A DNA stretch of 64,000 nucleotides from Pseudomonadota bacterium (lineage in GTDB: Bacteria > Pseudomonadota > Gammaproteobacteria > Competibacterales > Competibacteraceae): assembly GCA_022709365.1 (NCBI GenBank), contig JAKLIY010000007.1, positions 1 through 64,000 of the forward strand, written 5' to 3'. The position numbers and the translations under genes were made by a program. The notes below the pieces were generated by a model. It was not told where the DNA came from. It searched no databases and saw only the letters and a list, made by a program, of their open reading frames with translations. How positions within the stretch are numbered: position 1 is the first letter of the stretch; every line of letters begins with the position of its first letter. This document shows, in pieces, positions 16,699 through 18,891 of this stretch.

Positions 16699-16868
16699 GC
16701 GAATGAATGAGCTAAATTTAGCGATGACGCCGTTATTTTACGATGTTTAAGCCGCTTGTGGCTTGGAGACTGCTTCAAATTTGGGCTAGACTCAATCCGG
16801 TAACAGCGCCAGCAAACTTGCCAGTTGCGCTTTGGAATCCATCGAGCCATTTAAATGAGGAGTCACTC

Positions 16869-17600
16869 ATGTCAAAGAAGAAAGAACCGACCCGAAACCC
16901 GGTCAAGGCCGAACCCGCCAAGGCTGCCAGCAAAACCGAGGTCGTAAAAGCACCGCCAGCCGCTCCCGCCAAGCCGGTGGAAGCAGCGAAACCTGCTCCA
17001 GTCCCGGCCAAGCCAGTGGAAGCAGCGAAACCCGCCGAAGCAGCGAAACCCGCCGAAGCAGCGAAACCCGCTCCAGCCCCGGCCAAGCCAGTGGAAGCAG
17101 CGAAACCTGCCGAAGCAGCGAAACCCGCTCCAGCTCCGGCCAAGCCCGCGGAAACAGCGAAACCTGCCGAAGCAGCGAAACCCGCTCCAGCCCCGGCCAA
17201 GCCAGTGGAAGCAGCGAAACCTGCCGAAGCAGCGAAACCCGCTCCAGCCCCGGCCAAGGGTGCAGAGAAACCTGCGCCTGCCAAGGGGAAAGCGGCTAAA
17301 GCCTCATCCAAAGTCCCCGCTTCTGAAAAGCGCGCTGGTTCTGTGGTTACGGTCGTCGTCGCCAAATACGATGTCGGCTATGGCAACAACCTGTACATTC
17401 GTGGCGATAGCGCTGGCCTGAACTGGGAAACCGGCGTCTTGATGAAAAACGTTGAAAACGACGTGTGGGTCTGGACGACCAACGAGGCCATCGAAGGCAC
17501 CGTCGAATTCAAGTTCCTGATCAACGACGAAGGTTGGTGCGTCGGCGAAAATATGTCCGCGCCTGCCGGAGAAACCACCACGTTGTCCCCCGCCTTTTGA
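16869..17600 (+). CDS. Lys/Ala/Pro-repeat protein with C-terminal starch-binding-like (CBM20-type) domain
   Basis: The 243-residue product starts at ATG 16869 behind GAGGAG. Residues 1-150 are a low-complexity basic region of AAKPAEAAKPAPAPAKP-type repeats, like the histone-H1-like tails of PhaF and AlgP. Residues about 158-243 form a compact domain. It contains VTVVVAKYDVGYGNNLYIRG, GLNWETGV, VWVWTTNEAIEGTVEFKF, LINDEGWCVGEN and AGETTTLSP. These fit the beta-sandwich pattern of CBM20-type starch-binding modules with conserved Trp residues. There is no signal peptide, so it should act in the cytoplasm. Inference: the domain binds glycogen while the lysine-rich arm binds DNA or another polyanion. 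Confidence is good for architecture, low for function. Confidence 0.75.
   Translation: MSKKKEPTRNPVKAEPAKAASKTEVVKAPPAAPAKPVEAAKPAPVPAKPVEAAKPAEAAKPAEAAKPAPAPAKPVEAAKPAEAAKPAPAPAKPAETAKPAEAAKPAPAPAKPVEAAKPAEAAKPAPAPAKGAEKPAPAKGKAAKASSKVPASEKRAGSVVTVVVAKYDVGYGNNLYIRGDSAGLNWETGVLMKNVENDVWVWTTNEAIEGTVEFKFLINDEGWCVGENMSAPAGETTTLSPAF
16976..17260 (+). repeat. Tandem repeats coding the Lys/Ala/Pro arm
   Basis: A unit of about 57 bp (GCAGCGAAACC-GCCGAA-GCAGCGAAACCCGCTCCAG-CCCCGGCCAAG) recurs with few changes, giving about four to five copies plus partial ones. Near-identity at DNA level implies recent expansion and likely length variation between strains. It is coding sequence, with no unique spacers. 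Confidence 0.8.
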
Positions 17601-17655: not shown

Positions 17656-18891
17656 TCACCCGATTTCCCGCTGTAACCGGCCCCATTCCTGGCGTGAACG
17701 GATCACGCAATCCTCAATCGCAACCCCAGTAAAATAGTTGCCGGTCAACGCCAACCGCGTTCCCGCCAGCATCCGGTCCACATCCCGGGTTCGTTCGCCG
17801 TGTCCCACCCGCAAGGCCGGTAATTGATTGGTCTTGTTCACCACATTCGCCGTCGTCAGCATTTCGTGCGGCAGATTGAGGGTCTGAGCGATGCAATCCC
17901 ACTGATCGGCTGCATCGAGTACGCCGGGCCGGAAATGGAACGTGAATCCCCGGTAGCGCTCATCGGGAACGACATCGCGCGACACCACCGAATAGAATGC
18001 TTGGTTGCGACCGATCAATCCGGCGACCGGCGGTAACTGCAATACGGACTTTGGAACCGCGATCCCGACCGTTTCCACTTCTGCGGTTGAGATTTCCGCC
18101 AGCCGTTCGGCCAATGCCGGGAACCCGGTCTGGAGCAGGCAGGCAGCGACCGCAACCGGGGTCGCCAGGCACAGCGAACGGGCCAGGACTTCGCCGTTAT
18201 TGGTGCGAACGATGAAATCATGGCCTGCGCGCCGCACCTCTTGAACGGCCTGACCGCATTCGATAGTGACGCCGGGCTGTTGGGCAAAAATCTCCGCGAG
18301 CGTCTGCAAGCCGCCGGGCAGAGTGAAACCACGGGGGACATCCTTGCGCCGGGGACGCGGATTGAACAGGCTGTCAGCGGGAAATTCCCCGGCAGGCTGA
18401 CAAATCACCGCGCTGAAGGCCGGTTCGAATACCGCACGGTAATTGCGCGGGCCGACGATAGGGCCGAAATAGTCGGCGACGCTGCGGCCGATCTTGCTGG
18501 ATCCCAACCACCGGAAGGGTGCCAGCAGCAGCTCCGAAAAATAAAGTTGCGAGGGAATGCTGCGAACTGCACCATCCGCATAAAGGCGAAAACTGACCTT
18601 GGCGCGTCGTTGCAGGCGATTCAGCGCCCCCGCAGATTCCAGCAGGGCCAGCAGGTTGCCGTAAGAGTTGAAAGCACTGTGCGCCCCCAGTTCCAGCCAG
18701 AAACCGTCCAGTTCGCCGGTGAAGCGGTGTGAGTGCAGGCATCCCCCGATTCGGCAATCCTGTTCCAGGATCAGCGTATGCAACCCGGCGCGGGCGGCGT
18801 CCTGGGCGATACTCAGGCCGCTGACGCCGGCGCCGATGATGATTAAATCCCAGATGGGGGCCGGAGAGGCGCTGAGCGTGTCAAGGGTCAT
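17656..18891 (-). CDS. FAD-dependent amine oxidase / protoporphyrinogen oxidase-like protein
   Basis: The 411-residue flavoprotein has the dinucleotide motif IIIGAGVSGLSIAQDAARAG and the following LILEQDCRIGG, as in HemY-type protoporphyrinogen oxidases and related amine oxidases. The C-terminal FAD-contact segment LTGNYFTGVAIEDCVIRSRQEW strongly resembles the HemY ending. It has no signal peptide or obvious membrane anchor. It might oxidise protoporphyrinogen IX in haem synthesis, but no haem gene is adjacent, and phytoene- or amine-type substrates remain possible. It is convergent with the upstream CBM gene and transcribed away from the SDR gene. Confidence 0.75.
   Translation of the reverse strand: MTLDTLSASPAPIWDLIIIGAGVSGLSIAQDAARAGLHTLILEQDCRIGGCLHSHRFTGELDGFWLELGAHSAFNSYGNLLALLESAGALNRLQRRAKVSFRLYADGAVRSIPSQLYFSELLLAPFRWLGSSKIGRSVADYFGPIVGPRNYRAVFEPAFSAVICQPAGEFPADSLFNPRPRRKDVPRGFTLPGGLQTLAEIFAQQPGVTIECGQAVQEVRRAGHDFIVRTNNGEVLARSLCLATPVAVAACLLQTGFPALAERLAEISTAEVETVGIAVPKSVLQLPPVAGLIGRNQAFYSVVSRDVVPDERYRGFTFHFRPGVLDAADQWDCIAQTLNLPHEMLTTANVVNKTNQLPALRVGHGERTRDVDRMLAGTRLALTGNYFTGVAIEDCVIRSRQEWGRLQREIG

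Follow-up and report, generated by a model that had tools for sequence, protein, structure and literature searches.

PHA granules are organised by phasins, and the glycogen and starch of eukaryotes by STBD1 and PTST; in the open-access literature that we searched, we came across no bacterial protein described as doing the same for glycogen. A gene within the 64,000-nucleotide stretch of DNA analysed here (referred to as the window) raises the question of whether such a protein might exist in the Competibacteraceae, which are known as glycogen-accumulating organisms of wastewater and store PHA as well. An earlier note had proposed that the gene encodes a tether for glycogen granules, in which a starch-binding domain is carried on a basic arm that attaches to DNA in the manner of the phasin PhaF. 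Here we consider how far the gene, its relatives and their genomes bear out the two halves of this proposal.

A complete two-part gene under purifying selection

The gene (16869..17600, forward strand) is complete, with an ATG at 16869 that is preceded by GAGGAG and a stop codon at 17598-17600, and codes for a 243-residue, predicted two-part glycogen-binding protein. Composition, charge, tandem repeats and an AlphaFold 2 (AF2) model together delimit a disordered arm rich in Lys, Ala, Pro and Glu (residues 1-157; 16869..17339, forward strand), whose basic N-terminus, MSKKKEPT, is conserved, and this is followed by a CBM20-like starch/glycogen-binding domain (residues 158-243; 17340..17597, forward strand). 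Since the C-terminal domain shares 54-87% identity among 16 relatives, has a dN/dS of about 0.07-0.30 in pairs of relatives and is joined to an arm that begins with MxKKKEPT in nearly all copies, the open reading frame is not a product of chance; it is a gene under purifying selection. The protein had been described as lacking a signal peptide, and a hydropathy scan agrees: the arm has no hydrophobic segment (the highest 19-residue Kyte-Doolittle mean being 0.1), so that no signal peptide is apparent.

The C-terminal domain has a predicted CBM20 fold

The motifs from which a starch-binding domain had been proposed (GNNLYIRG, GLNWETG, VWVWTT and FKFLINDEGW) were all located, where they had been placed, within residues 158-243, a compact and acidic region with a pI of 4.1. 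When the C-terminal piece was compared with Pfam, CBM_20 (PF00686) scored 26.6 bits, above its cut-off of 23.3, and the whole 243-residue protein scored 23.5 bits against the same cut-off. The profile matched 7 of 12 close copies at E <= 0.1, and in a six-frame search of 29 orthologues the window copy alone passed; because the other orthologues failed in this search, we regard the profile match as marginal. An AMPK1_CBM/CBM48-type profile (PF16561) reached 17.6 bits, below its cut-off of 26.8.

The predicted structure gives a clearer assignment. An AF2 model of the domain, generated from 12 aligned copies, has seven strands and a pLDDT of 83.4, and a Foldseek search returned 26 PDB matches at E <= 0.001; those listed are CBM20-bearing chains, at the top of which stand the B. 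cereus beta-amylase, STBD1 with maltotetraose (8x8k), glucoamylases and CGTases. Structural superimposition with VIA-align gave Z scores of 10-12 across the CBM20 structures compared, including 11.6 for STBD1 (8x8k; rmsd 2.4 over 88 residues) and 10.7 for the CBM20 of a maltotetraose-forming amylase (rmsd 2.0 over 83). A starch-binding fold was found in this way both by profile and by structure prediction, as the earlier note had anticipated. When the sequence of the domain by itself was compared with PDB chains, no match was returned; a profile search against the same chains returned chance matches only, and hhalign comparisons with four canonical CBM20s from the same bacterial family, in which the alignments were very shallow, were not significant. 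A further profile, A2, did reach CGTases, and was set aside as independent support because canonical CBM20s are among its own sequences.

Among 17 diverse copies of the domain, four tryptophans and a lysine are invariant (W39, W53, W55, W76 and Lys68 when numbered along a 96-residue piece, 17310-17597; W27, W41, W43, W64 and K56 in A4 numbering), together with several Asn and Gly residues. Judged by sequence, the invariant Trp, Lys and Asn positions appear typical of alpha-glucan sites. Pairs of tryptophans bind glucan in AMPK-beta (Trp100/Trp133) and in PTST (Trp217/Trp255) (PMC4339375), and W39 and W76 are spaced in a similar way to these pairs, to which we infer that they may correspond. 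On the basis of the predicted model, the 243-residue protein can be considered a marginal yet fold-supported member of CBM20.

A separate resemblance was noted in a GMC-type oxidoreductase reading frame (L087; G169:C54:7218-7391), whose N-terminal domain resembles the CBM of the window (FKFVLNGEYWMTGANLSV versus FKFLINDEIWSAGDNLSA). This is the nearest resemblance outside the Competibacteraceae and, at E 0.0015 per genome, a hint only.

The arm is disordered, mildly basic and conserved in kind

The repeat arm, which had been put at about 150 residues, is real. Its 157 residues comprise 35% Ala, 22% Pro, 18% Lys and 10% Glu, and are encoded by tandem DNA repeats of 18, 39, 57 and 75 bases. When the full protein was modelled with AF2, residues 1-157 had no secondary structure (block pLDDT 41-58), and no coiled coil, leucine zipper or oligomerisation helix was predicted in them. 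The comparison of the arm with histone H1 needs one correction, as K and E alternate in the repeats, leaving these nearly neutral, and most of the net charge sits at the two ends: the central 97 residues carry a net charge of +5, as against +5 in the first 30 residues and +6 in the last 30.

Across 24 complete copies the arm is 72-181 residues long (median 132), and in 23 of them it is basic (pI 9.6-10.6), with a median net charge of +14, or about +1 per 10 residues. A single copy has an acidic arm (L027, in genome G031; net -4), and another, L038, in the 1.2-Mb genome G012, has an arm of 78 residues that is not Ala/Lys/Pro-like. The best conserved stretch is MxKKKEPT, and no second protein with the same arm was found in the genome at E <= 1. 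What is conserved is therefore the kind of arm, its disorder and its length, and neither its sequence nor a strong positive charge. The G012 genome (L064) is estimated to be 100% complete at its 1.2 Mb and has 42% GC in the stretch examined; it looks like a reduced-genome lineage within the family.

The gene is provisionally restricted to the Competibacteraceae

A search for relatives yielded 11 loci, most of them labelled Competibacteraceae, with Candidatus Competibacter phosphatis among them. One record, labelled Phycisphaerales GAO1 (L010), was rejected as a carrier outside the family, as its gene order is that of the Competibacteraceae and it appears to be genome G003. Exactly one copy of the gene is present in 29 of the 40 genomes of the window's order, all of them Competibacteraceae; this corresponds to 29 of the 39 genomes of the family and to 21 of its 25 high-quality ones. 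At E <= 0.001, the gene was found in none of the genomes sampled outside the family (274 of the class, 398 of the phylum and, with a broader profile, 369 of the class, in samples that overlap); the broader profile matched three family members and, weakly, two sequences outside the family. Because the sampled genomes are a small fraction of each group, this restriction to the Competibacteraceae is provisional. Classical CBM20s also occur in three of the relatives, in other, longer reading frames.

Genes for glycogen synthesis are present in every carrier: those of GlgC type (ADP-glucose pyrophosphorylase) occur in 40 of 40 genomes of the order, as do GlgA-type matches, which are weak only in two high-quality carriers (G002 and G038) and in a few incomplete genomes. 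The survey of homologues suggested by the earlier note places them near-exclusively in a glycogen-storing family, and the distribution that it had regarded as fatal to its proposal, with homologues widespread in organisms that lack glycogen synthase, was looked for and not found. However, the co-occurrence with GlgA and GlgC is not specific, since non-carriers have both, and we discarded it as evidence. Glycogen phosphorylase is present in 36 of the 40 genomes, including all 21 high-quality carriers, and is absent from two of the four high-quality non-carriers (G023 and G024), a co-occurrence with P = 0.02 when kinship is ignored. Phasins of the PF05597 type (26 of 40 genomes) fit the presence of the gene less well than the phosphorylase does. 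G012 keeps the CBM gene, GlgA and phosphorylase, without a PF05597 phasin.

A promoter-like element precedes the gene, and its neighbours vary

An alignment and a motif scan revealed a conserved element upstream of the gene (16763..16795, forward strand), TTGGAG-18 nt-TAGACT(CAA), which in the window is separated from the start codon by 73 nt. Written as TTGGAGACT-TTC-TT-GG-TAGACTCAA, with 25 fixed positions, the motif was recovered with at most four mismatches over these positions, 61-83 nt before the ATG, in 22 of the 23 orthologues whose start could be read; it is unique in the window, where none would be expected by chance. A scan for the sigma-70 consensus did not flag the element; TAGACT may fit a -10 consensus of the stationary-phase type. 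The element is probably the gene's own promoter. The gene is probably transcribed alone, since the genes that flank it in the window are encoded on the other strand.

The convergent neighbour, which encodes a flavin amine-oxidase-type protein (17656-18891, reverse strand), is found in nearly all of the family genomes examined, G001 being an exception. Other usual neighbours are an SDR, an AXE1-type esterase, FeoB, thrC and a CoA ligase, which have no obvious role in glycogen metabolism, and no conserved neighbourhood of glycogen genes was found in these genomes. Two exceptional arrangements are suggestive, each in one genome. In G018, a glycogen debranching enzyme (GDE_N/GDE_C; L059:10783-12879) lies 2.5 kb downstream of the CBM gene, with two genes between. 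In G001, the most divergent carrier, the CBM gene, a phasin gene and a convergent TetR-type regulator follow in a row (L058:9478-11622), the PF05597 phasin gene sharing the strand of the CBM gene and following it after 318 bp, and the regulator (PF13972) lying beyond.

During this analysis, we also noted two phasin-domain proteins (L079 and L080; G000:C46 and G027:C53), in reading frames of 222-233 residues, that have an extra C-terminal region, DDLKLISGIGPVLEGKLHAAGI. By its sequence, this region looks like a DNA-binding segment of the helix-hairpin-helix type, making these phasins a possible link between PHA granules and DNA in the Competibacteraceae.

Comparison with known systems and alternative explanations

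CGTases, glucoamylases and maltotetraose-forming amylases are secreted enzymes. Their CBM20 appendages have the same fold as the domain in the window, but differ from it in being joined to catalytic domains. Mammalian STBD1 is closer in that it is non-enzymatic and tethers glycogen through a C-terminal CBM20, and 8x8k is the best-placed single-domain structural match; however, STBD1 is anchored in the membrane by its hydrophobic N-terminus (PMC5358331), in place of which the window protein has an arm that is long, soluble and disordered. Plant PTST1 likewise combines an N-terminal interaction region with a C-terminal CBM in a non-enzymatic granule protein (PMC4339375), although here the parts are a coiled coil and a CBM48 rather than a disordered arm and a CBM20-like domain. 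PhaF of Pseudomonas also joins a part that binds a storage polymer to a disordered part rich in Ala, Lys and Pro, but PHA is bound through an amphipathic helix and not a CBM, and the strongly basic tail is C-terminal, whereas the arm of the window protein is N-terminal, about threefold less charged and contains Glu. The window protein belongs to none of the three. By analogy, STBD1 and PTST (as CBM-based tethers) and PhaF (as a granule protein with an arm) would be its closest functional parallels.

These parallels bear directly on what the arm might do. If the protein worked as PhaF does, the CBM would sit on glycogen and the Lys-rich arm would attach to the nucleoid by non-specific DNA binding, so that glycogen would be distributed along the chromosome and shared out to the daughter cells. 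The overall layout is that of PhaF, whose positively charged tail of AAKP repeats binds DNA (PMC5658603), almost all of the arms are basic, and most of the charge in the window copy sits at the two ends of its arm. Yet a PhaF-type phasin from the same class (L068) has 12 K/R and no D/E in its final 42 residues, about +3 per 10 residues, and so roughly three times the charge density of the arms studied here, through which Glu is scattered and among which one is acidic (L027) and one departs from the Ala/Lys/Pro composition altogether (L038). Moreover, Pfam finds no PF05597 phasin domain in the window protein, and AF2 predicts no helices, the oligomerisation helix and leucine zipper included. 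The DNA-binding arm of the earlier note is thus not borne out; given that the charge is weak and variable, we think a DNA tether improbable. A somewhat better case, though still an unlikely one, can be made for a scaffold in which the arm or its basic N-terminus brings a glycogen enzyme to the particle, as PTST, with its N-terminal interaction region and C-terminal CBM, localises starch synthase to granules (PMC4339375). The conservation of MxKKKEPT above the rest of the arm would fit such a role; the want of a coiled coil or any other predicted fold in the arm, and of any glycogen-pathway gene as a consistent neighbour, argues against it.

The phasin gene next to the CBM gene in G001, with its TetR-type regulator, and the PF05597 phasins of most carriers invite the idea that the protein cooperates with phasins to bridge glycogen and PHA in a family that stores both. 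As this adjacency is confined to one genome, 4 of the 21 high-quality carriers lack PF05597 and G028 has four phasins and no CBM gene, we hold a bridge to be very unlikely. It is also doubtful that this beta-sandwich of CBM20/CBM48 type binds a protein or a sugar other than glycogen: the marginal profile scores and the hint of kinship with the GMC-type oxidoreductase would allow it, but the Trp/Lys/Asn set is invariant, the top structural matches are almost all alpha-glucan binders and the hosts store glycogen.

A candidate glycogen-surface protein

Because a CBM20 fold with invariant residues is combined with a disordered arm, no hydrophobic segment and co-occurrence with glycogen phosphorylase, we favour the reading that this is a cytoplasmic, non-enzymatic protein of the glycogen surface in the Competibacteraceae, whose arm is more probably a brush or spacer than a specific tether to DNA, and we judge this reading reasonably probable. 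We infer glycogen as the ligand and the granule as the location from these features. The CBM20-type domain would dock onto alpha-glucan chains at the surface of the glycogen particle, with the long, mildly basic arm pointing outward; many copies might then form a polyelectrolyte brush, so that particles stay separate and accessible, and the arm could hold close such partners as enzymes or PHA granules or, with lower probability, DNA. Among the roles for the arm, we would place this phasin-like brush or spacer first, a PTST-like scaffold next and a DNA tether lower. Of the tether by PhaF logic that was originally proposed, we retain a starch-binding fold, in a protein with no apparent export signal and in hosts that store glycogen, and do not retain the attachment to DNA.

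More broadly, we see about an even chance that the protein is a bacterial "glycogen phasin", a lineage-specific, non-enzymatic coat that binds through its CBM20 and whose arm organises the particles, by spacing, by partitioning or by attachment to the nucleoid or to PHA. Such a coat may be behind the large glycogen stores of the Competibacteraceae. If this is true, it would offer a first way into the question of how glycogen-filled bacteria arrange and partition their glycogen, and the gene would serve wastewater biologists as a marker for glycogen-accumulating organisms of the Competibacter type.
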